Source: SAR324 cluster bacterium (GTDB taxonomy: Bacteria; SAR324; NAC60-12). From it: DNA of 64,000 nucleotides. Position 1 is the stretch's first letter. Each line of letters opens with the position of its first letter. The stretch spans positions 1-64,000 of the forward strand of contig JADFZZ010000028.1 of NCBI GenBank assembly GCA_015232315.1, given 5' to 3'. Positions 9,015-34,893 of the stretch are shown here, piece by piece. Made by a program: the position numbers and the translations under genes. The notes beneath the pieces are model-generated. The model did not search any database and was not told the DNA's origin. It was given only the letters and a program-made list of their open reading frames with translations.

Positions 9015-9049
9015 TTTAACAGGCAGCGATCTGATTGCGGCCTGTTAAA
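9015..9049. terminator. Hairpin between convergent fliG and the ParA-like gene
   Basis: A perfect 10-bp inverted repeat (TTTAACAGGC at 9015-9024, GCCTGTTAAA at 9040-9049) with a 15-base loop. It lies exactly between two convergent stop codons and overlaps the stop of the minus-strand gene. There is no long T tract on either side, so it is at best a modest bidirectional terminator or an mRNA 3'-end stabiliser. Confidence 0.45.
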
Positions 9050-11159: not shown

Positions 11160-11254
11160 ATCATGGCTGATTGATCTGGGGTTTCTGAAAATCAAGGTTT
11201 TCCGACCGTTAATCAGGAAAAAACCTGTAGCTTACGAAAACAAGAAGCGCACGA

Positions 11255-12476: not shown

Positions 12477-13835
12477 TCACTCCCATCCAAGATTAATGTT
12501 TTCAATCGTTTTTCTAACTTTTTTTGAATATCGACCATTGGGAAAATCGTTTAGATATTCCTCATACGCTTTGACCGTGTGCGCCTTTTTGGATCGCTGA
12601 TAAATCAATTCCTCCCGAATTCCTCTAATCTCATCGGTCTTGGTTCCTTCAGGGAACTCCTGAATATAAAGAGTATATGCGGGAATTGAATTTTTCTTTT
12701 TAGCATAAGCTTCCAGTCGGGTCTGATATTCTTCTGGTGTTAACTCCTGCTTATCCTTGGCCAGCACCAGAATTTCCCGCTGGTCCTGGGCCTGAACAAT
12801 ATATTCACCCTGAGGATACTCTGTGATGTATGTATCGTAATCCTCAATCGTGTTGGTTTTTTTAGCTTTCTGATACAATAACAAATCTCTGATACGATGA
12901 ATCTGTGCCAGATAATTGCCTTTTGGATACTCCAGAAGATAATTATCCATGGATTCTTTGGTATTGTCGTTTTTGGCTTTTTGGTACATCAATTCTTCTT
13001 TGGAACGATCCGCTTTGGCTCTGAATTTTCCATTCGGGAATTCATTGAGATAGCTGTTGTATCCATCAATTGAATTCTGATCGGTTACCCGTTTAATCCA
13101 CAAATTTTCCCGGTCGGTCTGAGCCTTCTCAACATATTTTCCCTGAGGATATTGATTGAGGTAGCTGGAATAACTTTCCACAGTGTTATCTTTTGCAGTC
13201 TTTCTAAACCATAAATCTTCTTTAATTTTAATAACGCTATCCACAAATTTTCCATCCGGGAAGTTATTGAGATAACTATCCATCGCCTCAACCGTATTCA
13301 GATCTTTTGCTCGTTGGTAGATCAGATTTTCTCTGACAGATTGAACCGAGTCGATGTAACGTCCCACCGGAAATTCGTCCAGATACTTGTCATAAGCATC
13401 AAGACTGTTTTCTTTTTTAGCCCAACGAAATAGCAGATCCTCTCGATTTGTTTTTGCCTCATGAGCATGCCTGCCTCCCGGATAAAGTTTCAGATAATCA
13501 GCATACGCTTCAATGGTATGGTTCAGTTCTGTTTTGCGATATAAAATGTGGTCCTTTTCCTGATTGGCAAGCTTCACAAAAAATCCTTGGGGATATGCCG
13601 CCAAATACTGATTGAAAGATTCATCCGTGTAAGTTTCCATCGCTGAATTAAAAACTGCGGCTTCTTTCAAAAAGATGGCTTCATCCTTATAAACACTATC
13701 AGGATGTTCATTAACGAATGCATGATAGGCATCAACCGTATTGATTCTTTTCGATCGCATAAATGCCGAATCCGCTGAACAGCCTGATAACAATGTGATT
13801 AAGATGATGCCGCTAGTAACGCTAATAATTTTCAT
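12477..13835 (-). CDS. Lipoprotein with eleven ~33-residue tandem repeats
   Basis: 452 residues from the ATG at 13835, chosen because it yields a clean lipoprotein signal (LITLLSGC) and has AAGAG just upstream; upstream in-frame ATGs at 13856 and 13892 lack a ribosome binding site. After the lipobox the protein is almost entirely repeats with the pattern NTxEAYxxYLxxFPxGxYxxxAxxxRExLxxxxA. I count eleven copies, from VDAYHAFVNEHPDS to VKAYEEYLNDFPNG. They look like TPR/Sel1-type helical hairpins with an unusual consensus. It lies in the T6SS operon after the TssB-TssC fusion, so an outer-membrane-anchored periplasmic scaffold for the secretion machine is a reasonable inference. The same repeat type occurs in the protein at 46494-47480. 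Confidence 0.75.
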   Translation of the reverse strand: MKIISVTSGIILITLLSGCSADSAFMRSKRINTVDAYHAFVNEHPDSVYKDEAIFLKEAAVFNSAMETYTDESFNQYLAAYPQGFFVKLANQEKDHILYRKTELNHTIEAYADYLKLYPGGRHAHEAKTNREDLLFRWAKKENSLDAYDKYLDEFPVGRYIDSVQSVRENLIYQRAKDLNTVEAMDSYLNNFPDGKFVDSVIKIKEDLWFRKTAKDNTVESYSSYLNQYPQGKYVEKAQTDRENLWIKRVTDQNSIDGYNSYLNEFPNGKFRAKADRSKEELMYQKAKNDNTKESMDNYLLEYPKGNYLAQIHRIRDLLLYQKAKKTNTIEDYDTYITEYPQGEYIVQAQDQREILVLAKDKQELTPEEYQTRLEAYAKKKNSIPAYTLYIQEFPEGTKTDEIRGIREELIYQRSKKAHTVKAYEEYLNDFPNGRYSKKVRKTIENINLGWE

Positions 13836-13891
13836 AGCTCTTTTTCTGTTATACATTAACAAAAAGTTGAAACTGAAACAGGAGTGATCCA

Positions 13892-13916
13892 TGGATGTTT
13901 CTTACAAAAACATCCA
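13892..13916 (-). other. Intercistronic hairpin after the TssB-TssC fusion gene
   Basis: A perfect 9-bp inverted repeat (TGGATGTTT at 13892-13900, AAACATCCA at 13908-13916) with a 7-base loop, starting 20 bases beyond the stop of the TssB-TssC fusion gene. It is not followed by a U tract on the minus strand. It could act as a partial terminator, an RNase block or a processing site. Confidence 0.5.
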
Positions 13917-13935: not shown

Positions 13936-15642
13936 TTATAGTTTACCAAGTAATGATAAGGAAAACGCAGCTCCCATATAGCGAAAATGCGGGATCACTG
14001 TGAGTTCCATTTTATATTGAGATGGATTTTCCTCATCGGCTGCCACGCTTAATCGGGCACGCCGTAAAGGCCTGCGTGCTCGAACCTCTGCTGATGGATT
14101 TTCCATGTCTGAAACATATTGAATCAACCAGCTATTGAGTTCGTCTTCCAGTTGTTGGCGATTTTTCGAAGAACCAATATTATCACGTTGTATGACTTTG
14201 ATGTAATGAGACAAACGGCAAACTATCAGTAAATAGGGAATTTGCACCGCAAGTCGTTGATCCAGTGAGTGTGAATTTTCACTACCTGAATCTACCAATG
14301 CTGCCTGAATTGAATTGCCTGATTCAAATGAAACAATCTGGTTTCCTTTCTGATACGTCAGTGGGATGAACCCCAACTTGGTCAATTCCCCCTCCACCCT
14401 GTCCGTCATCAGAATTTTTAATGGAATAATCACCTGGTCTTTTGAAATCGCATTCTCTCTGGGCCAAATCAAATCATCAACACGGCCCCCATCCGAGCCT
14501 ATGATATCCAGAGGCCAGCGGTACTTTATAAAACTTCTGATCATGCAGGATGCCAGTGCAAATGAGGCATTTCCCCAAAGATATTCTGAACTTTCTACGT
14601 AGGGGAAACTTCGAATGTACGCCGATTTGTAATCATAAGGTTTTCGTAGCAGAAACTCCGGGAGTGTCAAACCGATGAATCTGGAAGATTGATGACTTCT
14701 TACAGACCGCCATTTTGCGAACCTCAGATTTTTTTCAATGTTGTCTGCCAGATTTTTTGCCGTGATTAATTCAGAAAAGTCTTCCAAACCTAATAACGTT
14801 GGCTGTGCACCTGCAATGAATGGGGCATAACAGGCACTTGCAACTTCGCCACAACAACGAAGCAGATATAAATCTTCTGCCTCCAGACCAAATTGATAAT
14901 TGGCAACTATCACACCATACGGATGCCCGCCAAAAGACCCCAACTCATCTGTGTAGGTGATCTTGTAAAGAAATGAATCCAGAATCTCAGAACTACTTTC
15001 AAAATCCTGTAATAATGAATTTTGATCCAGGTCCATCACCAGAATTTCGCAGTTTTCACCACCCTTAATCTGTTTGACCAAAAAAAACAAGGATCGCCAG
15101 GCAGACTCCAGTTTCTGAAATTCTTCCTGATGCAGGATTTCATCCATCTGAAGAGTCAGTCTGTGATCGATTTCCGCTAAAATCAGATCAATATTTTCTT
15201 TTGTGACTTCATTATGTCCTAAAATCAGACTTGCCCAGAATCCTTCTGGTAAATTGTCCAGACTTTTTTCATCCGGAGTATCAACAGCAGAAGCTTGCTT
15301 CGATCTGATCAGATTTTGCTGTAACCGTACAATTTGTCTTAAAACCGGATTTGCCTGAATCACACCATCAGGACTGAATGAATCAAGACTTCTCAAGGGA
15401 AGAATGATATCAATTGAAGAGTTTTCCTGTTGGGTCAAATAGTCAGTGACTCTTAACCGCAAGGTAATATCCATTGATGTGAGAATTTCATCAAAATTCA
15501 TCAAATCAATCATAACCGGCTTAATGCCGTCTAAATCTTCCCCCTGGCATTTCAGGGAAAAATCGCCCAAAACCAAAACACGGTATGGAAGTTCAACATC
15601 ATCCGATTCGTCTTTGGAATAAACTAGCCTGATACGTTCCAT
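13936..15642 (-). CDS. Natural TssB-TssC sheath fusion protein (T6SS)
   Basis: 568 residues from the ATG at 15642, which has CAGGAA just upstream; a TTG at 15672 would overlap tssM. Residues ~1-120 match TssB/VipA (VELPYRVLVLGDFS beside VELPLKVLVMGDFS in the locus's own TssB). Residues ~140-568 match TssC/VipB (MDEILHQEEFQKLESAWRSL, YLWGNASFALA, QYVSDMENPSAEVRARRPLRRA, HFRYMGAAFSLSL). The two parts are joined by a short Ser/Asp/Glu-containing linker. Normal tssB and tssC lie 7-9 kb upstream in the operon, so this is an extra, covalently joined sheath-like unit. Possible roles are sheath nucleation, end capping or a special layer near the baseplate; these are inferences. It directly follows tssM. 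Confidence 0.88.
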   Translation of the reverse strand: MERIRLVYSKDESDDVELPYRVLVLGDFSLKCQGEDLDGIKPVMIDLMNFDEILTSMDITLRLRVTDYLTQQENSSIDIILPLRSLDSFSPDGVIQANPVLRQIVRLQQNLIRSKQASAVDTPDEKSLDNLPEGFWASLILGHNEVTKENIDLILAEIDHRLTLQMDEILHQEEFQKLESAWRSLFFLVKQIKGGENCEILVMDLDQNSLLQDFESSSEILDSFLYKITYTDELGSFGGHPYGVIVANYQFGLEAEDLYLLRCCGEVASACYAPFIAGAQPTLLGLEDFSELITAKNLADNIEKNLRFAKWRSVRSHQSSRFIGLTLPEFLLRKPYDYKSAYIRSFPYVESSEYLWGNASFALASCMIRSFIKYRWPLDIIGSDGGRVDDLIWPRENAISKDQVIIPLKILMTDRVEGELTKLGFIPLTYQKGNQIVSFESGNSIQAALVDSGSENSHSLDQRLAVQIPYLLIVCRLSHYIKVIQRDNIGSSKNRQQLEDELNSWLIQYVSDMENPSAEVRARRPLRRARLSVAADEENPSQYKMELTVIPHFRYMGAAFSLSLLGKL

Positions 15643-15659: not shown

Positions 15660-18600
15660 CTATTTCCAGCAATGAGTAATATTTCTAGGGACATCAAATT
15701 TTCGATTAGCTGCTGACTGACGTTCTTCCAGACCAATAGATACAAAATTTACAAACTCATTGGTAAATGGAATTTTTCTTTCTCTCACTACGGCTGGAAC
15801 ATATCCTTTTCCATATTGGCGTACAATAAACATTGTTCCATTTTCCGTGATGAAATTCCAAAGTTGTCCGCCCTCACCAAACATCAATCCACCTAATTTG
15901 AATTTGGGAACACCTTCTATTTCAACCAGAAATGCATTTCGCCACTGGGTTTGCAGCATACAGGCAGCTTCATTCAGCATGTATTCATAAACAATTTCCA
16001 TGGGTCCAATATATAGTTTCCAAAAGGCTCGTGAGGCTCTGGTTTCTTTACCAATCAGAGTTTGGAGCTTCAGAATAGTCTTATAGGCTGTCGCGTCTGG
16101 ACCATCGCCAACTCCCGGCTCATCTGGATTTGCAAAATAAGCCTGCATCGATCGGAAAGATACCGCTGGTTTGCTGGAATTGAAGGAAACATCCATCAAG
16201 GCTTTCTTATAATCGGTCAACAAGCCACCGGCCTGTTCAAGGACAACATCCAGTTCTTCACCAGATTTTGAACCTTTAGCCAGTTTTTTCTGTGTTTTCA
16301 TTCCTGATTTTCCACCTTTGGCAATAGCTTTTCCAACCGGGCCTAAAGCGCCCACAGCCTTCATAGCCAGTTTTGCCAGGGCTTTGTTGTTTCCGCCTTC
16401 TTCTTCTGGACCATAAACTTTCATCTGCTGATAATAATCCATCAAGGTCAGCCATTCCGGAGCGTTTTCATCCAAAAATGGTTCCAGTTGTTCAGTAAAA
16501 ACATCCAGAGCCTTGAAATAGGGATTATGACGGGTTGAAATGACATCAATTGTATCAATATACTCTCCACGTCCAGCCAGCATTTTCATCCCGGAATCAA
16601 ACTGGAGAGAGAAGTTTTCCCATGCATCCAGATATGCTTTTCGATAGGATTCCGTAAACAATGCCTGCATTTCCTTAAAGACTTCTGAATCTGGATCTGT
16701 CTGAACCAAGCGGTTAATGAACCCTTCAACAAATTCTTTTCCTTCGAGGGTATAAGCACTTGGAATAAAAATATCCTGCTCCATTTCCTTGGTACCACCC
16801 CAGTAAAACTTGAGGTGAAGTTGATCTGCTGAGCGAACCTCATCATTTGCGAGAGGAATAATCCATTGTAAATCTTTGGATACTTTTTCAAGTTTGCTTG
16901 TCAGACTTTGTCTCAACCATTCCCGCTCTTCTTTCAGTAAGCCCTCATCTTTTGACCAACTTAGAGAATGCAGATACAATGCGTTGAATGTGGCGAGAAA
17001 ATCCACATTTGTTCCACTTGGAAAATATAAACCGCCTTCGGCAAATGGTGCTGGCAATTCTTGTAATGCTTCAAAACTATTTCCTTTAAAATATGCGTCC
17101 ATCGTATTCAACCGACGCACAAAAGTATCAACCTGCCGTGCTGTGTTTCTTAAAATATCCGCTTCTGAAATTTTGCCTTCCGCCATTTCAACTTCAGATT
17201 TAATCAGTGCGGTGTTTAGACTTTCGTTCAATGGATTCATCAGGTTCTGTCTGAATCGTTCCGCATAGATGGTTTTCATTTTTTCTATAAATCCAGGTTG
17301 CTCAAATACACCAAACCAGGGAACCCACCATGTGCTTACCTCGTAATCAATTGTTTTGATCATTTTTTCCATACTGGCCATTGATTTTACTTTTTCATCA
17401 ATGCTGTCTTTCATCACAAAGGCTCCAGCATATTCTGAAGTCATTTGCTGGATAAAACCCAGATTGCCCGAATTGACCAGATACAAGACCCCAATCAAGG
17501 CTCCAATTCCCAGACTCCAAGCCCCCATGTACAACCGTCGCATGATAATCCCGGCACGTTCAACGGCTGTTAAACTGCCAAGCATACTTCTGTCGCCAGG
17601 GAGAATTCTGGTAAAAAAGTCCTGAATAAATATTCCCTTGCCAGCCTGGTCGTTTGCGGTTCCACCTTCGAGACCTGAAAGAAATATACCTCGTAAAAAG
17701 GGATTTTCCTGAAATGGATTTTCCTGAAATGCGCCATTACAAAAAATCATCAATTTACTTTCAAGATTTTGAAGATTTTTGGGCAGTCTTAATAATTTAT
17801 GTGAAACTCCCGATTGATTGATTTCATTCAATAACAGGTCTTTTACCCTTTCGGTGATTTTTTCCATGGACTTCGGAATCAATTGGCTCGCATTGAATTC
17901 ATCTTTTTCCTGAGTATAACCCATTACCTGGTTACGTTCTTCATGAGACAAGGCCTGAGCATAATCTTCAAACCCTTCAACTTTGTTACATTTGGTAACC
18001 ATCAAATAAATTGGAATCTTGATTTTGAGTTTTTTCATCAATTCATCAATTCGTGCCTGATGCTGACGTCCCTCCTCAAATAATTCTGTCTCATCACTTT
18101 CCAGCAAATGATTGGCATTGATCGTTAGAACCACGCCATTGAGAGGTTCTTTCTTCCTGTTTTTGTCCAATACTTTTAATAAATCATTCCATTCATCAGA
18201 GGCGCTTTTATCCTTTGAAATGTAGTTTTTGACAGGATCAATGATGATTGCATGGTTATACGGCCACCAGGTGCAACTGTCGTTGGACAATTCCTCAGTA
18301 TTGAACAATGGGGCGGGTAATCGTGCATGTGAGAGCATACTGGTTTTCCCTGAACCTTCAGATCCCAGCATCAAAAACCATGGCAGAACATACATGGGAT
18401 CGCCCTGATTTTTTAATGCGGATTGGGCCAGTATTTTTTGAAATTTTCCAAAATGCTGCGCCATATGGGATTTTTCAGTGCGCATGCTCATCACTTGAGA
18501 CATGATACTTTCTTTCCCATTCTCGCTCTCTTCCTGAGTGATCAGTCCCTCTACCTGTTTTTTAGCTTTCTGACGGGCAATAACTCGTCTGATCACCATA

Positions 18601-18749
18601 AACACAACCCATACTCCAAACAGGCCTCCGGCAATTTTCAGTGCCGTCTCCAGGGGTTGTTCCAGTAATGAAGTCACTGTAAAAATAATCACGCCAGTAA
18701 TTAATAACCAAACTAATGTATAAATGAGTATTTTGAAAAACGTCTTCAC
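15660..18749 (-). CDS. tssM: T6SS membrane complex protein TssM (IcmF)
   Basis: 1029 residues. Two N-terminal membrane helices (~8-28 and ~38-54) precede a cytoplasmic domain with Walker A GSEGSGKTS at 129-137. A third membrane helix lies near 430-450 (LGIGALIGVLYLV). A large periplasmic region follows (IcmF and TssM C-terminal domains). TssM spans the inner membrane and, with TssL and TssJ, forms the channel that anchors the contractile machine. The start codon is GTG (18747-18749) without a good Shine-Dalgarno; the next gene upstream, tssL, ends ~50 bases before. The P-loop is intact, whereas many TssM proteins have lost it. Confidence 0.92.
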   Translation of the reverse strand: MKTFFKILIYTLVWLLITGVIIFTVTSLLEQPLETALKIAGGLFGVWVVFMVIRRVIARQKAKKQVEGLITQEESENGKESIMSQVMSMRTEKSHMAQHFGKFQKILAQSALKNQGDPMYVLPWFLMLGSEGSGKTSMLSHARLPAPLFNTEELSNDSCTWWPYNHAIIIDPVKNYISKDKSASDEWNDLLKVLDKNRKKEPLNGVVLTINANHLLESDETELFEEGRQHQARIDELMKKLKIKIPIYLMVTKCNKVEGFEDYAQALSHEERNQVMGYTQEKDEFNASQLIPKSMEKITERVKDLLLNEINQSGVSHKLLRLPKNLQNLESKLMIFCNGAFQENPFQENPFLRGIFLSGLEGGTANDQAGKGIFIQDFFTRILPGDRSMLGSLTAVERAGIIMRRLYMGAWSLGIGALIGVLYLVNSGNLGFIQQMTSEYAGAFVMKDSIDEKVKSMASMEKMIKTIDYEVSTWWVPWFGVFEQPGFIEKMKTIYAERFRQNLMNPLNESLNTALIKSEVEMAEGKISEADILRNTARQVDTFVRRLNTMDAYFKGNSFEALQELPAPFAEGGLYFPSGTNVDFLATFNALYLHSLSWSKDEGLLKEEREWLRQSLTSKLEKVSKDLQWIIPLANDEVRSADQLHLKFYWGGTKEMEQDIFIPSAYTLEGKEFVEGFINRLVQTDPDSEVFKEMQALFTESYRKAYLDAWENFSLQFDSGMKMLAGRGEYIDTIDVISTRHNPYFKALDVFTEQLEPFLDENAPEWLTLMDYYQQMKVYGPEEEGGNNKALAKLAMKAVGALGPVGKAIAKGGKSGMKTQKKLAKGSKSGEELDVVLEQAGGLLTDYKKALMDVSFNSSKPAVSFRSMQAYFANPDEPGVGDGPDATAYKTILKLQTLIGKETRASRAFWKLYIGPMEIVYEYMLNEAACMLQTQWRNAFLVEIEGVPKFKLGGLMFGEGGQLWNFITENGTMFIVRQYGKGYVPAVVRERKIPFTNEFVNFVSIGLEERQSAANRKFDVPRNITHCWK

Positions 18750-18797: not shown

Positions 18798-19475
18798 TCA
18801 GATCGTTGTGATCAGATAACTGGCTGCATCGAAGATTTTAACTTTCAACATGTAAAACACTATAATGAAGATAATAACAGGAATGCCATATGCGAACGGC
18901 CGGTAATCAATATGGAGATCAATCCCGCTACCTTCCTGTCCTGTAATGTACGCTTCAGGAAATAAATGTTTGTCTCTATCATATCCTGATGAACGTTCTT
19001 CAACGCCCTTCAGTAAGGTGAGATTTTCTGCTTTGAGTTTATCCAGATAGGACTGATCCTCGTCTGTATAATATTTCCCGCGGTACCCTAACGTCAGACA
19101 GTAGTAATAGACTTCTCTGATATCTTTTTCCGCAGGGTCAAAGGGACTCAACTTATTGAGCTGAGTATAAAATTCTTCTCCAGCATGAACACTTTTAAAG
19201 TATTTAGCCTGCAGCAATTCTTTTTTCCACTCTTTTTTGTGCTTCCATGCTGATAGCATGATCGACTCGTCAATAAAAGCCACTACCGCATACAAAGCCA
19301 TTTGATACTGTTCATCTGAATACCCACCATCTATATAAATCCCTGACTGTTCTGAAATGACCCGTTCCAGCATCAATCGAACTTCTTCATATTCTCGAGA
19401 CTGTCCCTGATTAAACTCATCCACCAAGTCAATCGTCAGATACAGCACTTCATAAAAACAATCCATCATGCGCAT
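18798..19475 (-). CDS. tssL: T6SS membrane complex protein TssL (DotU)
   Basis: 225 residues. The cytoplasmic DotU domain occupies 1-190, with FIDESIMLSAWKHKKEWKKELLQAKYF and PFDPAEKDIREVYYYCLTLGYRGKY typical of the family. One C-terminal membrane helix (~194-214) anchors it. There is no peptidoglycan-binding OmpA extension, unlike extended TssL proteins. It works with TssM and contacts TssK. ATG with AAGGAG upstream; it starts 12 bases after the tssK stop. Confidence 0.92.
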   Translation of the reverse strand: MRMMDCFYEVLYLTIDLVDEFNQGQSREYEEVRLMLERVISEQSGIYIDGGYSDEQYQMALYAVVAFIDESIMLSAWKHKKEWKKELLQAKYFKSVHAGEEFYTQLNKLSPFDPAEKDIREVYYYCLTLGYRGKYYTDEDQSYLDKLKAENLTLLKGVEERSSGYDRDKHLFPEAYITGQEGSGIDLHIDYRPFAYGIPVIIFIIVFYMLKVKIFDAASYLITTI

Positions 19476-19486
19476 AGCAGCACTCC

Positions 19487-20893
19487 TTAAACCGCGATAA
19501 AATCAACTTTGAGATCTTCAGGTGCGTCATCCCAAATCAGCTTGATATTCCCCTGATTGACAATCCCTTCCCATGCGGGATGTTGTCTGTCTACACGTAG
19601 GTAAGAAGCGTTGGGTCGACGCGGAACCCCTTCAGGCTGAGCAGTCAAATATTTAACTTCCAATCCTGCCAGAGACCGTTCCACATATATTTTCACCTGT
19701 TCCTCTGAACCAATTTTTGCGTATTTCGCAAATTGTTCAAACATTTGTTCAAAGTTCTCGGATGTGATCATTGAAATATAAATATTTGAAGCACCAAACA
19801 ATGCTTTGGAAAGATCAGCCCTGAATTGTCCTGTACCAACCTGTTCCAGTCGGACAATAGTTTCTGAACTGATGGTGATCTCATTGAGCACTTGAATGAT
19901 CAGTTTTTGAGCACTTTGAAAACAGGATTCAAGCCTGTTGTGCATATAAGGTGGAAGCAGTCGGTCCCCCTGTGTGGTTTCTCCCAGAAAATTGATTTTA
20001 TCTGAAAGTGTACTGATCCCCCCAATCAACTGACGTAACAATCCATAAATTACCCAGGGATGAACGGATGGAGTGTCCACATAGTGAAACAATATGGGTA
20101 CGTACTGGCTTAATAACTGAATCGTCATCTTAAAATTAACGGTGCGTCCATCAACTTGAGTTGAGGCTCCGGCTGGAGTTTTATAATCCTCAAGTTGGCG
20201 AATCCGCCCTGCTAATTCATCTCGTATCTCCTTCAGTGTTTTAACCAGAAGCTGGGAACTTGCGATATGCACACATGGGGGCACATAGGTAGGGGACATT
20301 TTCGTTGTACCGCCGTCACTCACAATCTGGGCAATTTCCAGCAAATCATAATTTTTTGCGGCTTCTTCAATCTCATTTTCCCAGAACAATCGTACGACAT
20401 AACTCAAATGCTGTAACTTGGCAACAGGACCATCCACATGATAACTGGGAACGGTGGTCGGTTCTGCCGGTGTCAAATAACGTGTACTCACTTTTGCAAT
20501 CAATTCCTGGTCATTAGGATCTGTGATCACTGTCACATTCCCCCCTGCAGGATTCATTTTTCGAATGCCCACGTATATTTTAAGCGGCTGGTGTCTGTCT
20601 ATCCAGGCAGACGTGAACGATCTTGGCAATAATACCGCGTCATCAGGACAATCTACAAAAGTTCCGTCTTTCAACAGAATTTCACCATTTTCCACTTCAA
20701 AAACATCACTTTCAAGGGCACCTTCATTCACATCGAGTAGAACAACCCCATAGAAAAATGGATTGGCGATTCTCAACAATGTTGATAAATGCGATTCATG
20801 ATACAAATCCGTATGTTGCAAATGTTGAGGCTGTAAGAACTGCCCCTGATGCCAAAAAATTGGTTTTAGCGACGCTGTATTTTCTACTTCCAT
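19487..20893 (-). CDS. tssK: T6SS baseplate protein TssK
   Basis: 468 residues from the ATG at 20893, chosen because the family begins close to the motif IFWHQGQFLQPQHLQ and GGAG lies upstream; the longer frame to 20977 runs into a hairpin. The TssK hallmarks are the N-terminal WHQGQFLQPQH and the C-terminal receptor-like domain (RPNASYLRVDRQHPAWEGI). TssK is the trimeric adaptor joining the baseplate wedge to TssL/TssM. It lies directly before tssL, the usual order (tssK-tssL-tssM). Confidence 0.93.
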   Translation of the reverse strand: MEVENTASLKPIFWHQGQFLQPQHLQHTDLYHESHLSTLLRIANPFFYGVVLLDVNEGALESDVFEVENGEILLKDGTFVDCPDDAVLLPRSFTSAWIDRHQPLKIYVGIRKMNPAGGNVTVITDPNDQELIAKVSTRYLTPAEPTTVPSYHVDGPVAKLQHLSYVVRLFWENEIEEAAKNYDLLEIAQIVSDGGTTKMSPTYVPPCVHIASSQLLVKTLKEIRDELAGRIRQLEDYKTPAGASTQVDGRTVNFKMTIQLLSQYVPILFHYVDTPSVHPWVIYGLLRQLIGGISTLSDKINFLGETTQGDRLLPPYMHNRLESCFQSAQKLIIQVLNEITISSETIVRLEQVGTGQFRADLSKALFGASNIYISMITSENFEQMFEQFAKYAKIGSEEQVKIYVERSLAGLEVKYLTAQPEGVPRRPNASYLRVDRQHPAWEGIVNQGNIKLIWDDAPEDLKVDFIAV

Positions 20894-20961
20894 TTGTTTC
20901 AATTCTCCGTTGCAGGCACTCCTGTGTTTTTCAGCAAACCCTAAATTCTGTACAACCAGTT

Positions 20962-20991
20962 GGGGTAAAAGAGTCAAAACTCTTTTACCCC
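20962..20991 (-). other. Strong intercistronic hairpin between hcp and tssK
   Basis: GGGGTAAAAGAGT (20962-20974) and ACTCTTTTACCCC (20979-20991) form a perfect 13-bp stem with a 4-base loop. It starts 6 bases past the hcp stop codon on the minus strand. There is no U tract. It is well placed to protect the upstream hcp mRNA from 3' decay and to reduce read-through into tssK. Confidence 0.7.
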
Positions 20992-20997
20992 GATAAC

Positions 20998-21522
20998 TTA
21001 TTCTTCTTCACCACCCCATTCATCGGCGCCTTCTACTCCGGCGACTTCATGAGATACAGTGATTGCTTTATAATTGATCCACACATCTTCCAACTGGGTT
21101 AATGCTTCATTTCTCCAGTCCAGACAGTTTGGCATGTATGACTCAATTTTTGTAATGATCGCATCGTTCAGAGTGATGGTATAATAATTTTCTGCTTCAC
21201 CATCAGTGATCCGGTAGAATTGCAATTCCAAGTTAGTAATCTGCTGACCATCACAAAGAGCCTGAAACAAAAGTGGTGATGTTTTATCCCACACTTTTGT
21301 GAATTTCATGCCTTTATGAATTCGAGTGCCTGTCGGAACACCTGAATTCGGATTGGTAGGAACATGGATTAAACCTTCAAATCCCACCACCTGAATGGTA
21401 TTCTGCATTTCCTCATCAACAATTTCCTCGGCCATAATTCCGATACTTTCGGTCGTACAGGCCCCTTCGCATAGTTCTTCTTCTTCTACAAGACTGATCG
21501 TCATATAGGCTGGTATTGGCAT
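20998..21522 (-). CDS. hcp: Hcp-type T6SS tube protein, copy 1
   Basis: 174 residues, the normal Hcp length. It begins MPIPAYMTISLV, almost identical to the start of Hcp copy 3. Family features are HVPTNPNSGVPTGTRIHKGMKFTKVWDKTSPLLFQAL and NAIITKIESYMPN-type strands ending with an acidic tail (DEWGGEEE). Hcp forms the hexameric inner tube and carries small effectors. ATG after a good AGGAG. It lies between hcp copy 2 and tssK. Confidence 0.9.
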   Translation of the reverse strand: MPIPAYMTISLVEEEELCEGACTTESIGIMAEEIVDEEMQNTIQVVGFEGLIHVPTNPNSGVPTGTRIHKGMKFTKVWDKTSPLLFQALCDGQQITNLELQFYRITDGEAENYYTITLNDAIITKIESYMPNCLDWRNEALTQLEDVWINYKAITVSHEVAGVEGADEWGGEEE

Positions 21523-21562
21523 AACACTCTCCTGGTATTAGATGAAAATTAATGAATAATTT

Positions 21563-22078
21563 TTATTCCTCAGACTGGAAAATGCCGACATTGAAGATGC
21601 CGATGGTCTCCGCTATCGCATGTTCCCACACTGTCTTGATATATCGGAATGTGACTTTTTCCATGTGAGTGTAACCTTCATTTTCAGAAACCAGCGTATT
21701 CGGAATATATGGGCGGATATCTGTGACAGTGACTTTTTCCATGGATTTCGAAAAATATTCTTCCTCTTCACCCGAGGGATTAATCCACAAATAGGTCAAT
21801 TCCGCTTCTTCAAACACCTCTCCCTGCACCATCGCCTGAAACAACAATGGGGAGCTTTGATCCACATACTTGAGCACTGTCAATCCTTCGCTGATTGGAG
21901 CACCTGATTGTTGACCCGTTTCAGGGTCAGTGGGAAGATAATAATTTTCCTCAACACCAAGAATCTGGATTTCATCCTCATGAGAGGCAATCCCCAAAGC
22001 GCCCACACTATCTTCCGAGTTCGCTCCGGCGGCCACATCTTCTTCGCCTGTAATTGTTAAATATACGGTAACAGCCAT
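21563..22078 (-). CDS. hcp: Hcp-type T6SS tube protein, copy 2 (divergent)
   Basis: 171 residues. It shares the Hcp core (PTDPETGQQSGAPISEGLTVLKYVDQSSPLLFQAM, VTVTDIRPYIPN) but starts MAVTVYLTITGE and lacks the MPIPAYMT start of the other two copies. The C-terminus ends ETIGIFNVGIFQSEE instead of the acidic GxEGxDxWxGEE tail. It is the most different of the three paralogues and may form a specialised ring or carry a different cargo; that is inference. ATG preceded by GGAGGG. Confidence 0.87.
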   Translation of the reverse strand: MAVTVYLTITGEEDVAAGANSEDSVGALGIASHEDEIQILGVEENYYLPTDPETGQQSGAPISEGLTVLKYVDQSSPLLFQAMVQGEVFEEAELTYLWINPSGEEEEYFSKSMEKVTVTDIRPYIPNTLVSENEGYTHMEKVTFRYIKTVWEHAIAETIGIFNVGIFQSEE

Positions 22079-22118
22079 AGTCCCTCCATTATTTAGTTAA
22101 TCTAAATCAATCAAACTT

Positions 22119-22721
22119 TTATTCCTCACCATCCCAACTGTCAGTACCTTCTGTTCCTGCGATTTCGTGTGTCCAGGTAATGGCTTTATACCGGATTGTG
22201 ATTTCTTCCATATGGATCTGAGGAGAAAAAGTTCCCGGATTCTCTTCATCTTTCACCAGTTTGAGTCCCAAGGCTTTAGCGGCACCTTCCGCCTGCCGTT
22301 TCAAGGCTTCCCGATTTGCCTCTGCAGATTTATTATCAGGCATATAGGAACGAATCCGGGTTACAATGGCATTTTCGATGGTGGTCGAATAAAAATGTTC
22401 AGCTTTTCCACCTTCGCCAGGACGATACCACTCAATGGTCGCTTCCTCAATATTTTCACCGGTACTCAGCGCCTGCAAAAAGAGTGGGGATGATTTGTCC
22501 TGTATTTTAGTAATGATCATTTCTTCATGAATTCTTGGACCAACCGGTTGTCCGCTTTGAGGATCAACAGGTCTCCGGACACTATGTCGGAAAGACTGAA
22601 TTTGGATCTCATCAGCATGCGCCTCATTGGATTTGGTCCCGATACTCGACTCGTCGCTTGCACCTTCCGAGATTTCACCCTGATTCACCAGGGATATCGT
22701 CATATAAGCTGGTATTGGCAT
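22119..22721 (-). CDS. hcp: Hcp-type T6SS tube protein, copy 3 (with insertion)
   Basis: 200 residues from the ATG at 22721, which has a near-perfect AGGAGG; the frame open to 22763 is an artefact running through a hairpin. The start MPIPAYMTISLV and the end HEIAGTEGTDSWDGEE match copy 1. About 25 extra residues (AEANREALKRQAEGAAKALGLKLVKDEE) are inserted before the last strands, predicted helical and charged. It is the first hcp after tssC and has the best ribosome binding site, so it may be the main tube subunit. Confidence 0.88.
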   Translation of the reverse strand: MPIPAYMTISLVNQGEISEGASDESSIGTKSNEAHADEIQIQSFRHSVRRPVDPQSGQPVGPRIHEEMIITKIQDKSSPLFLQALSTGENIEEATIEWYRPGEGGKAEHFYSTTIENAIVTRIRSYMPDNKSAEANREALKRQAEGAAKALGLKLVKDEENPGTFSPQIHMEEITIRYKAITWTHEIAGTEGTDSWDGEE

Positions 22722-22739
22722 GTTCCTCCTGCTGTTGTC

Positions 22740-22761
22740 GAGACAGTCCTCGGACTGTCTC
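22740..22761 (-). other. Intercistronic hairpin between tssC and hcp copy 3
   Basis: GAGACAGTC (22740-22748) and GACTGTCTC (22753-22761) form a perfect 9-bp stem closed by a 4-base loop. It lies just upstream of the hcp AGGAGG site on the minus strand. There is no U tract; an RNA processing or stabilising element is more likely than a full terminator. Confidence 0.6.
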
Positions 22762-22816
22762 ATTGATTAAATGGGTTCAACTATCGGATTTACAGAAATT
22801 ACATCCTGTCAGTGCA

Positions 22817-24292
22817 TCAAGTCATGTCCAGTCGGCCACTCAAGGAGAGTGTAAAATTTGCGCCCATGAATTTGAAATGCGGCGTCACAGTGATATCAAC
22901 ACGATACCATCCTGCTTCACCTTCAACTTCATTGACCTGAACATTAGCTCTTCTCAAAGGACGTCGTCCTCTAATTTCTGCAGAGGGGTTTTCCTGATCT
23001 GAAACATATTGGCGGAGCCATCGATTCAGTTCTGTTTCCAATTCCGCCCGGCTTTTCCAACTGCCCAGTTTTTCACGCTGCAACACCTTGATGTAATGCG
23101 CCAGACGGTTCACCACAAACAAATACGGCAACTGGGTTCCCAAACGATAATTCATTTCAGCCTGACGTTGCTCAGGCTCTGTTCCAAAAAATTTGGGTTT
23201 CTGCACAGAATTGACCGAGAAGAATGTCGCGTTGTCTGAATCTTTTCGCATGGTCAATGGCACAAATCCTTCTTCTGATAATTCATATTCCCTGCGATCA
23301 GAGAATCGAACTTCTGTAGGACCAACAACAACGTTTTTACCATCTCGCTCAAACACATGCAGTGGCAAATCGGTCACACCACCACCACTTTGAGGTCCAA
23401 CAATGTTTGGACACCAGCGGTATTTTTCAAAACTTTCCGTAATTCTGGTACACAACGCAAACGCCGCATTTCCCCAGAGATAGTTTGTTGACACACCGTT
23501 GGTTTCTTCTTTGTAATTGAAGGCTTTTGCCGGATTGTCTTCGTTGTATGGATTCCTCAACAAAAAGTTGGGCAATGCCAAACCGACGTTGCGTGAATCA
23601 TCCGCTTCACGGAATGACTGCCATTTGGCGTATTGTGGGCCTGTAAACACTGATTCCAGGTCTTTAAGATTGGGCAGTTCGTCAAATGAGTTGATATTAA
23701 AAAACGCTGGACCTGCTGCCGCAATAAATGGGGCGTGCGCCATAGCCGCAACACTGGCAACGTGTCTGAGCAGTTTGATATCCTGCGCACCAGGGCCAAA
23801 CGTATAGTTTCCAACCAGAACGCCCACTGGCTTACCACCAAATTGACCATATTCATTGGTATAAATGTGTTGATACAGTCCTGATTTTGTTTCATCACCG
23901 GCATCCTCAAAATCTTCCAGAAGATCATCCTTGGAGACATTGATAATCTGAATCTGGATGTTTTCACGGAAGTTGGTTCGCTCAGCCATCACTTTCAAGG
24001 ATTTCCAGGCTGCTTCTTTCTTTTGAAATTCCGGGTGATGAAGAATTTCATCCATCTGACTGCTCAATTTCGCATCCAGAGCGTCCAACATGGCATCCAC
24101 GCGTTTCTTTTCCACACGCACTTGGGAAGAATCCTTCAACATTTCTTTCAAAAATTCTTCCAATCCTGTTTTTGCCGTTGCGTAACTTTCTTCACCTTCC
24201 CCAATTCTGGTTTGCTCCATTACTTGCTGAAGCAATGATCGATCTGTACTGATTTGTTTTTCTTTTGCTTTTGATGCTTTTTTCTCAGCCAT
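22817..24292 (-). CDS. tssC: T6SS contractile sheath large subunit TssC (VipB)
   Basis: 491 residues from the ATG at 24292 (AGGAGAGG upstream; the longer TTG start at 24313 lacks support). Full TssC plan: N-terminal helical region contacting TssB, MDEILHHPEFQKKEAAWKSLK, GQFGGKPVGVLVGNYTFGPG, YLWGNAAFALCTRI, and the C-terminal SDQENPSAEIRGRRPLRRA and HFKFMGANFTLSLSGRL. With TssB it forms the contractile sheath around the Hcp tube. It lies directly after tssB, with a ~77-base gap. Confidence 0.95.
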   Translation of the reverse strand: MAEKKASKAKEKQISTDRSLLQQVMEQTRIGEGEESYATAKTGLEEFLKEMLKDSSQVRVEKKRVDAMLDALDAKLSSQMDEILHHPEFQKKEAAWKSLKVMAERTNFRENIQIQIINVSKDDLLEDFEDAGDETKSGLYQHIYTNEYGQFGGKPVGVLVGNYTFGPGAQDIKLLRHVASVAAMAHAPFIAAAGPAFFNINSFDELPNLKDLESVFTGPQYAKWQSFREADDSRNVGLALPNFLLRNPYNEDNPAKAFNYKEETNGVSTNYLWGNAAFALCTRITESFEKYRWCPNIVGPQSGGGVTDLPLHVFERDGKNVVVGPTEVRFSDRREYELSEEGFVPLTMRKDSDNATFFSVNSVQKPKFFGTEPEQRQAEMNYRLGTQLPYLFVVNRLAHYIKVLQREKLGSWKSRAELETELNRWLRQYVSDQENPSAEIRGRRPLRRANVQVNEVEGEAGWYRVDITVTPHFKFMGANFTLSLSGRLDMT

Positions 24293-24369: not shown

Positions 24370-24849
24370 TTAGATTCCCAACTCTTGAATCAATTGATTT
24401 CTCAGCCCTTCGTTGTCCAGAATTTCCTGGATTTGACGACGAAATGCCGGAATATTCCCTAATGGTCCCTTCAGTGCTGTCACGGCCTTGCGTAACTCAA
24501 TCACTTTTTTCAATTCAGGGACTTGTTCAATAATACTGTCAGGATTAAAATCCTTGATGGACTTGAATTCAAGATGCATGGAAATACTGGCATCTTTATT
24601 TCCGGATAATTTATCTGCCACATCCATATCAATACTCAGATTATGTGAGGCCAGAATATCATCAAAATTATCATTGTTCAGATCCATCACTTCTCTGTCT
24701 TCCAGAGGCGTTGCATCTGCCTGGAAACTGAAATCACCCATGACCAGAACTTTTAAGGGCAATTCCACTTCCTGATTTATGTCGCCAATTTCTGTTTTGT
24801 ATACAATATTCACTCTCTCTTTTGGGGATACCGATGCTTTTTGACTCAT
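24370..24849 (-). CDS. tssB: T6SS contractile sheath small subunit TssB (VipA)
   Basis: 159 residues, the normal length. Signature VELPLKVLVMGDFSFQADATPLEDREV, then NFDDILASHNLSIDMDVADKL and the C-terminal helix ending LRNQLIQELGI. It pairs with TssC to build the sheath. It is the first gene of the tss block; a 156-base gap with a palindrome separates it from the TAXI gene upstream, so a promoter there is likely. Confidence 0.95.
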   Translation of the reverse strand: MSQKASVSPKERVNIVYKTEIGDINQEVELPLKVLVMGDFSFQADATPLEDREVMDLNNDNFDDILASHNLSIDMDVADKLSGNKDASISMHLEFKSIKDFNPDSIIEQVPELKKVIELRKAVTALKGPLGNIPAFRRQIQEILDNEGLRNQLIQELGI

Positions 24850-25005: not shown

Positions 25006-26316
25006 TTATGTTCTGAATCCTGAAATTTTGAATTCAATTTCATGAATCACATGCACACACTCCTGAAGAAATGTCTGAAAGAAATTGGAATCCTGAATGT
25101 TTTTGCCTACCATATCCTTGATCGCATGCTCCTTGATCATCAACGCATCGTAATGGTATTGCTTCAACAAACGAATATCCTTGGCTTTCTTCTGTTCCTG
25201 TTCGATATGCATGATTTCCAACAACCAGGATTCCAGCTTTTTAGTTTCCTCCAGAAATTCTTTTTCTACCGCATTCTGTCGTCGGCGGAGAATTTCAAAA
25301 ATAACCGCAATCATCAGGATGATACTGAACAGAATGATTTCCTTAAATTTGTAGAGGAACGAAATGGTATCAGACAACATCTCAAGTCCCGCATAAGTTT
25401 TGTAATACTGACTTGACGCGGGATGTATCGGCAACGCTGTCCACCTGTCACTTTCAGTCCATTCTTTGCCCAGCAATACGGTTGAAGCTTCATACATTGA
25501 GAACCTATGCAACGCCGGCATTATCTTCTTGATCACTTCACTCGGTATACTTTCTTTGGCAGCCAGAACTGCCGTGGTGGCAACCGTCTTCTGAGAACTG
25601 GAGGGTACTGGTGTTGTGATCGTGGGAAAAGATCCTTCAGGAAGCGTTGCTGAGAAAAAAAATGGAAAATAATACGGCAATCCATCGACAGCACCCAGAT
25701 TCATCCAGTCAAACTGACCACTCATGATCACATCCTGAAATTCAGGACTGAGTATGCTATCAACAACAATCCCGCCAACATAAGTTGAATCTTTACGCAA
25801 TCGGGCAATGGTGGCATCGGTGTCATCCAGATCTTCAACTTTCAGGGCATAATGTTTCAAAACGCTGGTTGCGATCTCCCTGTTCTTACTCCCCTCACTA
25901 CCCAATGCCACGCTTCGTTTCTTAAGTTTGGACATATCCGTAATATCGGCGTTTTTCCGCATGATGACATGGAGGTATTCCAACCACAGCGGTCTGACAG
26001 CGGCCAGATTTTCCATGGATACCATTCCGGTGTTCAGGATGGCCAGATCCACTTCTCCGGATAACAACAGTGAGCGATTTTCCGCAGACCCCTTGGTTGG
26101 CCGCACTTCCACTTCAAAGTTGGTATTCTTCTCAAGTTGTTTTTTTAGAATCTTGCCAAATTCATAGGAGTAGGTTCCTTCACGTCCTGAAGCAATCTTG
26201 AGTTGAGCTGGTGTGGTCAGGTCAGCTCCGCCATACATAATTCCGGCAATGGAAATTGCCATGATTCCCCAACTGATCCATCGGCCGTAACGATAAATGA
26301 AACCCTGTAGACGCAT
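25006..26316 (-). CDS. TAXI-family solute-binding protein with membrane anchor
   Basis: 436 residues from the ATG at 26316 (AGAGGAAAG upstream; the extension to 26355 is unsupported). An N-terminal hydrophobic segment (ISWGIMAISIAGIMYGG) leads into a TAXI solute-receptor domain (LKIASGREGTYSYEFGKILKKQLE, DLAILNTGMVS, SVALGSEGSKNREIATSVLKHYAL). A second membrane helix (~320-340, IILFSIILMIAVIFEIL) and a cytoplasmic charged helical tail of ~90 residues follow. TAXI proteins normally feed TRAP transporters, but no DctQ/DctM-type permease is nearby. The two-helix tether suggests a sensing or signalling role rather than transport. Its place between the two T6SS blocks may be chance. Confidence 0.8.
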   Translation of the reverse strand: MRLQGFIYRYGRWISWGIMAISIAGIMYGGADLTTPAQLKIASGREGTYSYEFGKILKKQLEKNTNFEVEVRPTKGSAENRSLLLSGEVDLAILNTGMVSMENLAAVRPLWLEYLHVIMRKNADITDMSKLKKRSVALGSEGSKNREIATSVLKHYALKVEDLDDTDATIARLRKDSTYVGGIVVDSILSPEFQDVIMSGQFDWMNLGAVDGLPYYFPFFFSATLPEGSFPTITTPVPSSSQKTVATTAVLAAKESIPSEVIKKIMPALHRFSMYEASTVLLGKEWTESDRWTALPIHPASSQYYKTYAGLEMLSDTISFLYKFKEIILFSIILMIAVIFEILRRRQNAVEKEFLEETKKLESWLLEIMHIEQEQKKAKDIRLLKQYHYDALMIKEHAIKDMVGKNIQDSNFFQTFLQECVHVIHEIEFKISGFRT

Positions 26317-32185: not shown

Positions 32186-32208
32186 AATTTGTTTTTGTGT
32201 GTGAGTTT

Positions 32209-34851
32209 CTATACATTCAGATGAAGTGCTTTTGCCAGAATCTGCGGCCCGCCGGCCCCAATGAGCGTGCCGACACTATTGATCTGGGTTCCTTTGGATT
32301 CCACTTGTGTTCCCTGTGCCTTGACCTCAGTTCCCTGTGCCTTGACCTCAGTTCCTTCCGCTTGAACAGTGGTTGCTGTAGCCTCCACCTCAGTTGCTGT
32401 GGCGGCGGTTTTCATGGCCTCCAGGGTTGTTGTGCGCAATAGCAACGCATTCACTCCGGCCTTTAGCGAAATTTCCTCAATTTCGATTTCTGTTTTGGGG
32501 CCTATCATGATCTCCAGTTTAGGACCGATATACACCTCGGCGGAAGCCGCGATTTTCGCTTCATACGCGACACCGATAAAAATTTCGGCGGCGGCACCCA
32601 GCGTCAGTTCGGTCGTTACCGACAGATTCAGCGTGACTTCCGCGGACAGATTCATTTCGGATTTCCCCCCCATGAACATTTCATCATTCCTCCCCCAATG
32701 GGTTGACTTGTTATTGCCCTTGATGGTTTCTTCAGAATCGCCGGTTGTGACGGATTTGGTATTGCCGTCCATCTCTTCATCAACATCACCCTTCTGATAA
32801 GAGTAGCTGTTGCCTTCGGTATATTCATAACCATTGCCCTTCGTGTAGGCCCAGCTATTTCCCCAGACCTTTTCCACATCATCGCTATCCATATTCGGAC
32901 CGCCCCATTTCCAGCCGGTGAAGGTTTCACCACCAATATTAATGTCCTGGGCCATATGAGTTTCAGCGTAACCGCCGCCGAAGTTGAATTCATTGCCGCC
33001 GCCATAGTTGTACACATTTCCGGCAGTCCAGTTGTATTGATCTCCAGCCCTGCGTGACACCAGCCATTTTCCTGATAGCTCATCCGCTGTCGTCATGGCG
33101 GTCCCCCCATTCCCTTCGTCATCCAGAATATTGAAGGTGAACAGAGCCTGTTCATCAATCAGATCTTTTCCTTGTTCGGCGGCTTCCGCCTGTGTGATTT
33201 CCGCTTCCAGATCATCCTGCACAGCTACGATAGGTGCGTCCTCATTTTCGTAACCCTTGGCGACGACCGTTTCCAGTTCACCGCCAAGCACTTCGGTACG
33301 GCTTAATCCCTGCGTGAAGAATGCCACGCCTTCTCCCGGGAAATTGCCCGCGCCAAGGTGAAAATAGGTCTGGCTTTGAGGGGTGTAAAGCTTGATACGG
33401 TTGGTTTCTTCCTGATCTTCAAACTCAATGGTGTTGCCACTACTGGTTTTGAGGACATTCCGGGTAAGATTATCGCCATGAACAACGCTCTTATGCGTGG
33501 CATTGGGAATTGCGCCGCTGATCACCGGTTGATCCGTATCGCCATTGATGAAGCTGATCAGCACTTCTGTTCCCATACGCAAGGGAAAGTGCATGCCTTC
33601 TTTCTCGCCCACATAAGGTTGCATCATTCGCACCCACCAGGAGGCTTTCCCTTTTTGCCGCTCTGTTGTCCGGTCAAACAGAAAAATAACTTTGTATCGT
33701 CCCTGTTCATCCACTTCCGCGTATTTGCCATCCAGTTCGCCATCAATCCGGCCATTGACATTCCCATAGAATTTGGCGATCGGGGTATTGCGTGGCGCAC
33801 GATACTGGGTTGCGGCAGGAATCGCGGTGAAGGTGTTGAAATACGACACTTTGGAAGAATCCCCCGCCATGTGACTCGGAGAACTGCCTTCATGCTGAAT
33901 CTGGGTCACCAGATATTCCTGATTGAACGTGGACCGGAAATGTTTTTTCAACTCAAAGATAAAACCGGGAACCAGCCGTGCCACATGGCTTTCACCATAA
34001 AACATTTCCTTGGTGCAACGAATTTCTTCAGCCCGAACAGTAGCCAGAAGTTTTCCTTCTTCCGGCGTATCAAAATTATCCCCATACACAAACAGTTCCC
34101 CTTCGCCCTTGTCATCCACGGTGGCTTCACCGCTGTCATCCACCGATGGTTTTTCATAATTATAATCTTTCAGTATTATTTTTTTGGGCATGCGGTTCTG
34201 ACGACAGACCAGTGATTGAACATTGTCATAGGTCGTCGCCAATCCGGTTGAAGCGGCAAAGTTCAGGGTTGGCTTTGGCATTTTCTGATGGTTCTGTTTG
34301 TTATCTGTGATGACCAGTTTTTCTTTGTCTTCTTCCTGCACAAAATAATAATACAGCCCCCAGTGCTCCATAACGCGGGAAATATAATTCAGGTGTGTTT
34401 CGGAATATTGACAGCGGAAGGACCAGACCGGATAACTCCCATTCAACTGGATTTCATAATCCATGGAGGTGAGTCCGCCTTCTTCCAGCACCTGCTTGAG
34501 AATGTCCTCAATGTTCATGTCCAGAAAAATTTCATTGGCCCGATGCAATGACAACTGCCACAACCGCGGAACCAGCACCGCACGATACAGTGTGTATTCG
34601 CCCACCTGATGCAATTGTTCAAAATTCGAAAGAATACCATGGACGGGTGCCTCAGAATCGCCCACTTTCATGGTAAACGTGCAGGGATTGTGAAGCATGG
34701 CTTCCATATCAATCTCGGCACTTTTTGATTTCAGGTCAATGGTGTACTCATATGGTGTTGAAAGAGACTCCACACCCTTGAATGAGACAACAAACAGGGT
34801 TTCATCAGGCTTTACGGCCTTGCATGCAAATGTATAGGAAAATTCTGACAT
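32209..34851 (-). CDS. vgrG: T6SS spike protein VgrG (TssI)
   Basis: 880 residues from the ATG at 34851 with a near-perfect AGGAGG; the TTG 15 bases earlier is rejected. The gp27-like base occupies ~1-350 (ADETLF-type start, EDILKQVLEEGG, YSETHLNYISRVMEHWGLYYYF). The gp5 OB-fold follows (KGKASWWVRMMQPYVGEKEGMHFPLRMGTEVLISFINGDTDQPVISGAIPNA). A long C-terminal beta-helix needle continues (EYTEGNSYSYQKGD, then repeated GTEVKAQGTQVESKGT-type strands). It forms the puncturing tip with the DUF4150 protein. No clear effector domain is fused at the C-terminus. It is the first gene of the spike operon. Confidence 0.95.
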   Translation of the reverse strand: MSEFSYTFACKAVKPDETLFVVSFKGVESLSTPYEYTIDLKSKSAEIDMEAMLHNPCTFTMKVGDSEAPVHGILSNFEQLHQVGEYTLYRAVLVPRLWQLSLHRANEIFLDMNIEDILKQVLEEGGLTSMDYEIQLNGSYPVWSFRCQYSETHLNYISRVMEHWGLYYYFVQEEDKEKLVITDNKQNHQKMPKPTLNFAASTGLATTYDNVQSLVCRQNRMPKKIILKDYNYEKPSVDDSGEATVDDKGEGELFVYGDNFDTPEEGKLLATVRAEEIRCTKEMFYGESHVARLVPGFIFELKKHFRSTFNQEYLVTQIQHEGSSPSHMAGDSSKVSYFNTFTAIPAATQYRAPRNTPIAKFYGNVNGRIDGELDGKYAEVDEQGRYKVIFLFDRTTERQKGKASWWVRMMQPYVGEKEGMHFPLRMGTEVLISFINGDTDQPVISGAIPNATHKSVVHGDNLTRNVLKTSSGNTIEFEDQEETNRIKLYTPQSQTYFHLGAGNFPGEGVAFFTQGLSRTEVLGGELETVVAKGYENEDAPIVAVQDDLEAEITQAEAAEQGKDLIDEQALFTFNILDDEGNGGTAMTTADELSGKWLVSRRAGDQYNWTAGNVYNYGGGNEFNFGGGYAETHMAQDINIGGETFTGWKWGGPNMDSDDVEKVWGNSWAYTKGNGYEYTEGNSYSYQKGDVDEEMDGNTKSVTTGDSEETIKGNNKSTHWGRNDEMFMGGKSEMNLSAEVTLNLSVTTELTLGAAAEIFIGVAYEAKIAASAEVYIGPKLEIMIGPKTEIEIEEISLKAGVNALLLRTTTLEAMKTAATATEVEATATTVQAEGTEVKAQGTEVKAQGTQVESKGTQINSVGTLIGAGGPQILAKALHLNV

Positions 34852-34893
34852 GAAACCTCCTGACAAAATTAAAACATTAAGAAGTCATCCTTT

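Follow-up and report, generated by a model that had tools for sequence, protein, structure and literature searches.

The window, which is the 64,000-nucleotide stretch of SAR324 cluster bacterium DNA analyzed here, contains a type VI secretion system (T6SS) cluster in which one gene joins both families of sheath protein in a single chain. By its sequence, this fusion (P0001) is a TssB core followed by a TssC that lacks the N-terminal region, and it is encoded in addition to canonical tssB and tssC genes. The fusion is confirmed as a real member of the TssB/TssC family, in an arrangement of which we found no description, as a natural TssB-TssC fusion, in the open-access literature searched. We tentatively favor an interpretation in which its product is a specialized accessory subunit, insensitive to ClpV, that builds or caps an end ring of the sheath, most likely at the baseplate. 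How a T6SS sheath starts, how it ends and how it is dismantled without destroying its base are not settled.

An intact fusion gene that looks native to its T6SS cluster

The fusion gene and its parts are listed below.

13936..15642, minus strand: tssB-tssC fusion gene (P0001), 568 aa, ATG at 15642, stop at 13936
15307..15642, minus strand: TssB-like part, residues 1-112 (PF05591 at 2-112; TssB HMM positions 16-129 of 172)
15211..15306, minus strand: junction, residues 113-144, in place of the C-terminal tail of TssB and the N-terminal region of TssC; contains the stub EKSLDNLP
13936..15210, minus strand: TssC-like part, residues 145-568, with the VipB domain and the gp25-like handshake domain (PF05943 at 154-446, PF18945 at 460-568)

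The frame from 15642 to 13936 (minus strand) has no internal stops, an AGGA resembling a Shine-Dalgarno sequence lies immediately 5' of the ATG, and the start lies 17 nt past the tssM stop. An earlier reading of the DNA made from the letters alone (hereafter the sequence-only reading) had given the same coordinates and length and had placed the gene directly after tssM, which agrees with these results. That reading also described a TssB-like part followed by a full TssC-like part. Both families are indeed present in one chain, as VipA/TssB (PF05591; residues 2-112, 79 bits, cut-off 24), VipB (PF05943; residues 154-446, 305 bits, above the curated cut-off) and the gp25-like handshake domain VipB_2 (PF18945; residues 460-568, 128 bits, cut-off 27), but neither part is full length. 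The TssB part is truncated to Pfam profile positions 7-121 of 155 and scores 75 bits against TIGR03358, below the cut-off of 97, with the C-terminal part absent; what remains comprises the arm at the N-terminus, two strands of domain 2 and the beginning of a helix. The TssC model TIGR03355 matches at 446 bits (cut-off 271.5) and begins only at profile position 43 of 473. Against profiles from canonical proteins, the fusion covers TssB positions 16-129 of 172 and TssC positions 54-492 of 495; the C-terminal tail of TssB and about the first 50 residues of TssC are absent.

These losses bear on whether the fusion is an artifact. We rejected the idea that a frameshift or misassembly had joined tssB and tssC because about 95 residues of both partners are absent, and a sequencing error that joined two complete genes is excluded because the junction of about 35 codons cannot encode the missing residues in any frame, which upholds the claim that the fusion is genuine and natural. 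At 0.39, the fusion has the same GC3 as tssK, tssL and tssM (0.38-0.42), and each half likewise matches these genes, which makes the fusion look native to the T6SS cluster.

The cluster spans 9045-34866 and comprises vgrG, a DUF2169/pentapeptide/DUF4150/DUF3540 module, tssB, tssC, three hcp genes, tssK, tssL, tssM and the fusion, with genes for a YfiO-like protein, a lipoprotein and a MinD-like membrane protein 3' of the fusion.

32209..34866, minus strand: vgrG, start of the cluster, named from the sequence of its ORF; when used as a search seed, it retrieves genes within other T6SS clusters
24370..24849, minus strand: canonical tssB, 159 aa, 22-residue arm (TIGR03358, 169 bits)
22817..24292, minus strand: canonical tssC, 491 aa, full N-terminal region (TIGR03355, 650 bits)
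20998..22763, minus strand: three hcp (tssD) genes (TIGR03344)
19487..20977, minus strand: tssK (TIGR03353, 277 bits)
18798..19475, minus strand: tssL (TIGR03349, 108 bits)
15660..18749, minus strand: tssM, directly upstream of the fusion (TIGR03348, 246 bits, below the cut-off of 388; PF14331)
12477..13892, minus strand: YfiO-like repeat protein, downstream of the fusion, with a relative in another T6SS cluster (L042)

Both separate sheath genes, tssB and tssC, which the sequence-only reading had called canonical, match their Pfam and TIGR profiles and are intact rather than degraded. The further claim that they share an operon with the fusion is plausible from sequence, with all genes on the same strand and short gaps from tssB at 24849 to 9045. 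The T6SS of this genome is split over two contigs, with B, C, three copies of D, K, L, M, the fusion and VgrG on C28 and with H, D, E, F and G on C1, where clpV, another hcp, tssE, tssF and tssG likewise lie beside a MinD-like gene. The genome yielded a single TssF locus, which leaves no second baseplate for the fusion, and a second complete T6SS with the fusion as its sheath was rejected on this basis as far as tested.

Several other features of the cluster were observed. A MinD/ParA-like ATPase domain follows an apparent membrane segment in proteins of both T6SS halves (window 9045-11195, minus strand, and L036:18298-19686), which are paralogs of each other (183 bits); a positioning ATPase of this type linked to a T6SS would be unusual. 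The VgrG and DUF2169/pentapeptide genes at 29204-34866 have a GC3 of 0.53, compared with 0.38-0.42 for tssB, tssC, tssK, tssL and tssM, as if this spike and cargo module had a different history. Between the cargo module and tssB lies a TAXI-type TRAP solute-binding protein (25006-26355, minus strand) that scores just under its family cut-off.

Sheath elements kept and lost in the predicted structure

An AlphaFold2 model of the fusion, generated from a 42-row alignment, showed high confidence (pLDDT 88.4, pTM 0.90), with pLDDT below 50 only at residues 1-13, which correspond to the arm and need a partner subunit. The best matches among solved structures are TssC/VipB chains, with TM-scores of 0.90-0.93 when normalized to chains without the N-terminal region. 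E values were about 1e-36 for TssC versus 1e-5 to 1e-3 for the sheaths of R-pyocins and injection systems; with T6SS TssC as its best match in sequence and structure and pyocin, phage and PVC sheaths weakly matched, the fusion lies outside the phage/pyocin/eCIS sheath family.

A T6SS sheath has three domains, of which domain 3 contains the TssC N-terminal helix recognized by ClpV, and R-pyocin sheaths, which are not recycled, have no domain 3 (PMC5807055). The model of the fusion contains the handshake domain 1 and the core domain 2, and its outer domain 3, together with the ClpV-recognition helix, has shrunk to a stub; what it keeps of domain 3 is a pair of basal helices and a shortened counterpart of the helix that follows them. 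The TssC part begins about where the structure of contracted VipB does, which was solved from residue 61 onward (PMC5048182). The sequence-only reading had asked whether the handshake strands and the ClpV-binding N-terminal helix of TssC are kept. The former are retained, with an arm that is three residues short, and the latter is not retained as such, with only 'EKSLDNLP' left and a proline within the helix position. This stub might still bind ClpV.

The retained handshake elements are the gp25-like domain, modeled with three strands, and the arm sequence ERIRLVYS; their pairing in an assembled sheath is putative. The arm, measured from the conserved 'KER' or its equivalent to the 'LP' that precedes the first core strand, spans 19 residues in the fusion; every one of the 19 canonical TssBs measured, drawn from several phyla and two subtypes, has 22. 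Arm length matters because, in Vibrio cholerae, arm insertions of two or more residues abolish contraction and killing (PMC5797969); those changes are insertions, whereas the change in the fusion is a shortening by three residues. The same study reports that VipB K223 is needed for sheath assembly and D333 for contraction (PMC5797969), and the fusion keeps the equivalents of both, as the K in FAKW and the D in MTDR. Among 82 near-invariant TssC residues, the fusion keeps 63, has changed 18 and leaves one, the start methionine, unaligned.

Divergent fusions in other T6SS-positive genomes

The possibility that the same fusion occurs in other T6SS loci, which the sequence-only reading had raised, was borne out in the form of divergent classes in other T6SS-positive genomes. 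An ortholog of the exact form in the window was not found among 98 relatives and about 570 other genomes. In another phylum, that of genome G074, 24 of the 247 genomes searched were T6SS-positive; in 12 of them a single ORF encodes the two halves of a short fusion, and in 2 more the fusion is cut by a contig end. Canonical tssB and tssC were detected in 12 of these 14 genomes, the exceptions being G274 and G341, where the contig with the fusion is short and broken.

The classes differ in what they have lost. Class II fusions (L075, L077, L079 and the fragment L094) have the arm, stop before the handshake domain and have lost K223; in L077 and L079, the gene lies between clpV and vgrG. Class III fusions, found in ten genomes, begin at the first core strand and have no arm, and an AlphaFold model (pLDDT 89, pTM 0.88) shows a complete gp25-like C-terminal fold. 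Classes II and III have thus lost opposite handshake elements, which are the acceptor domain and the arm, respectively. Class III genes adjoin an FHA protein, a divergent PP2C phosphatase and a Ser/Thr kinase in seven (L081, L083, L085, L087, L089, L090 and L091) of the nine loci with readable flanks, and the other two (L044 and L088) lie within the main T6SS cluster. Class V, another short version, is carried by two genomes from a further phylum, that of G060 (L153 and L154). A motif resembling the start of the ClpV helix is kept in classes II, III and V and only as the stub in the window.

Class IV differs from these short forms in that TssB and TssC are fused at full length, domain 3 included.

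L039:6914-8932 and L041:1559-3619: class IV fusions of 673 and 687 aa, in two genera of the family of the window's genome

No separate tssB or tssC occurs in the stretch retrieved around either gene, such that the fusion is the only sheath gene seen in the locus. Because the class IV fusion is seemingly the only sheath subunit of its locus, covalent linkage seems compatible with a working sheath.

Several candidates proved not to be fusions. Long open frames in G104, G122, G206 and G391 are separate tssB and tssC genes with a stop between them, a plasmid match that spanned tssB and tssC was checked and consists of two adjacent genes, and the matches with full cover in the contig scan are separate tssB/tssC pairs. 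No annotated short fusion occurs on plasmids among the 60 matches listed for P0001 or the 15 listed for class III, phage TssC-like matches in six records include no fusion, and viral contigs gave no match. No short fusion was recognized among the matches listed for the phylum of G079 (195 genomes, 76 with a match), and none was found in three genomes each of the phyla of G075 and G066. Separately, two genomes of the same taxonomic class encode a second complete TssC without a TssB part (L042:14600-16105 and L045:6908-8410); these proteins are divergent from the adjacent tssB-tssC and have S or N at the position equivalent to D333.

A tree built on the TssC core, with very long branches, places the window fusion next to canonical TssC from its own subtype; class II joins another subtype, and classes III and V group together. 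The approximately unbiased (AU) test rejected neither a single clade of all short fusions (p 0.105) nor a clade of P0001 with classes III and V (p 0.286). Because a single clade was not rejected, the fusions may have had one origin or several.

Possible roles of the fusion

We propose that the product of the fusion would be a single-chain, two-domain sheath subunit that works with the one T6SS of the cell, where it would form or cap a terminal ring of the canonical TssB/TssC sheath, most probably the one adjoining the baseplate. In a sheath, each subunit extends two strands to two subunits of the ring on its baseplate side, and TssE mimics the acceptor for the first ring (PMC5813253). The covalent link would fix a 1:1 stoichiometry in the end ring, the shortened arm would suit a special neighbor such as TssE, and the missing ClpV helix would prevent the ring from being pulled apart while ClpV recycles the contracted sheath. 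An end ring fits because the fusion is complete in its handshake parts, special in its arm length and devoid of the ClpV tag, and the loss of exactly the arm in class III or exactly the acceptor domain in class II is as expected of end subunits. We infer incorporation into the sheath, the end position, resistance to ClpV and placement at the base rather than the tip; the baseplate end appears the more likely of the two from the gene order after tssM and by analogy. Counting against this interpretation is the failure to find an ortholog of the exact form in the genomes searched, and the other classes keep the ClpV-helix motif and differ in their losses, such that one shared function is not certain. 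The sequence-only reading had suggested that a covalent pair could seed the sheath, cap it or form a non-contracting layer. The evidence leans toward an end ring beyond the reach of ClpV, and the retained K223 and D333 do not suggest a layer that is wholly non-contracting, although the shortened arm could produce one.

A broader version of the end-ring proposal, which we consider doubtful, is that the T6SSs of several phyla carry previously undescribed fused TssB-TssC sheath 'end subunits', each cut to its place. Class II, with an arm and no acceptor domain, would terminate the polymer; class III, with an acceptor and no arm, would be a TssE-like starter tied to the Fha/PpkA/PppA switch; and the window fusion, with no ClpV tag, would form a ring that survives recycling.

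Alternatively, the fusion could be a cap or length terminator that docks on the growing sheath tip at the distal end and replaces or joins TssA/TagA. The distal end in V. cholerae shows a topmost sheath-like ring and a cap, of which the protein composition was reported to be unclear (PMC5813253), and class II relatives without the acceptor domain are as fits a terminator. Moreover, TssA (PF06812) was found in 37 of the 39 T6SS-positive genomes searched and was not found in the genome of the window. This absence is a hint, and TssA may simply fall in the missing part of an assembly that is 95% complete. TssA loss was rejected as the reason for the fusion, since its absence is convincing in this genome only; the other genome without TssA (G274) has a T6SS cut at a contig end, and genomes with other fusions do have TssA. 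The window fusion also keeps its acceptor domain and can be built upon, and we consider a distal cap unlikely.

We consider it equally unlikely that the fusion regulates sheath assembly, as a decoy, chaperone or poison subunit that holds free TssB/TssC or the baseplate until a signal arrives. This idea draws on class III, which has no arm, an element needed for full handshake links, and which mostly adjoins the FHA, PP2C phosphatase and Ser/Thr kinase genes that make up the T6SS threonine-phosphorylation switch. The window fusion, however, keeps nearly all assembly elements and has no FHA, kinase or phosphatase gene of that kind nearby.

The retained handshake strands, K223 and D333, together with the full-length fusions that are the only sheath subunit seen in the loci of two genomes of the same family, would also suit an ordinary redundant subunit that copolymerizes randomly with TssB/TssC or is able to replace them. 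The short arm, the absent N-terminal TssC region, the 18 changed near-invariant residues and the long branch point instead to specialization, which makes redundancy quite improbable. Finally, it is very improbable that the fusion is a decaying relic of a duplicated tssBC pair, for although deletion from the TssB tail to the TssC N-terminus is an easy route and the branch is long with no close ortholog found, the 1.7 kb frame is intact with 63 of 82 near-invariant residues, a high-confidence fold, a ribosome-binding site and native codon use, and similar fusions are maintained in many other genomes.

On the sequences compared, fused extra sheath subunits look like a little-noticed accessory part of the T6SS. 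For the end-ring proposal, a joined, short-armed subunit without the ClpV tag, encoded beside normal ones, would be a natural tool for studying end-ring function and ClpV selectivity. That fusions recur, with one class mostly beside Fha, kinase and phosphatase genes, points to sheath paralogs as a structural or regulatory layer that has been overlooked.

Comparison with known sheath systems

Relative to canonical TssB/TssC (VipA/VipB), the fusion has the same two families, the core and handshake domains, and K223 and D333. It differs in being one chain that is additional to the canonical pair, in lacking the TssB tail and the ClpV-recognition region of TssC, and in its arm of 19 rather than 22 residues. 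The short fusions of classes II, III and V are likewise extra fused chains in T6SS-positive genomes, nearly always with canonical tssBC detected, but they are much more divergent; class II is without the handshake domain, class III is without the arm, and the ClpV-helix-like motif is kept.

Sheaths of R-pyocins and extracellular contractile injection systems resemble the fusion in having both halves on one chain, domains 1 and 2 only and no ClpV recycling, although the fusion is far nearer to TssB/TssC in sequence and fold and is part of a T6SS with ClpV. In the Afp and PVC extracellular injection systems, sheath paralogs serve different positions of one sheath. The likeness to the fusion lies in having several sheath proteins per machine, some kept for an end; the machine is a different one, and any such end position of P0001 is putative.

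Another parallel is TssC40 (ImpD, Atu4340) with its rhizobial counterparts. In Agrobacterium, which has two TssC homologues, Hcp secretion requires TssC40; this protein is not redundant with TssC41, and its absence still allows TssB and TssC41 to accumulate (PMC3702570). A rhizobial TssC40-like protein (L186:4007-5395, 462 aa), encoded in the same gene order as Agrobacterium TssC40, is missing the N-terminal 60 or so TssC residues and presumably the ClpV-recognition helix. Like the fusion, these proteins are a second TssC homologue beside canonical tssB and tssC, with the N-terminal region missing in the rhizobial one; unlike the fusion, they have no TssB part, are about 31% identical to P0001 and belong to a different T6SS subtype. 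Because TssC40 is needed and its rhizobial counterpart is without the N-terminal region, an extra sheath paralog that lacks the ClpV region has a precedent in vivo. A review describes the meaning of an additional tssC as unclear (PMC5813230), and the fusion is relevant to why some T6SSs have one (PMC5813230, PMC3702570).
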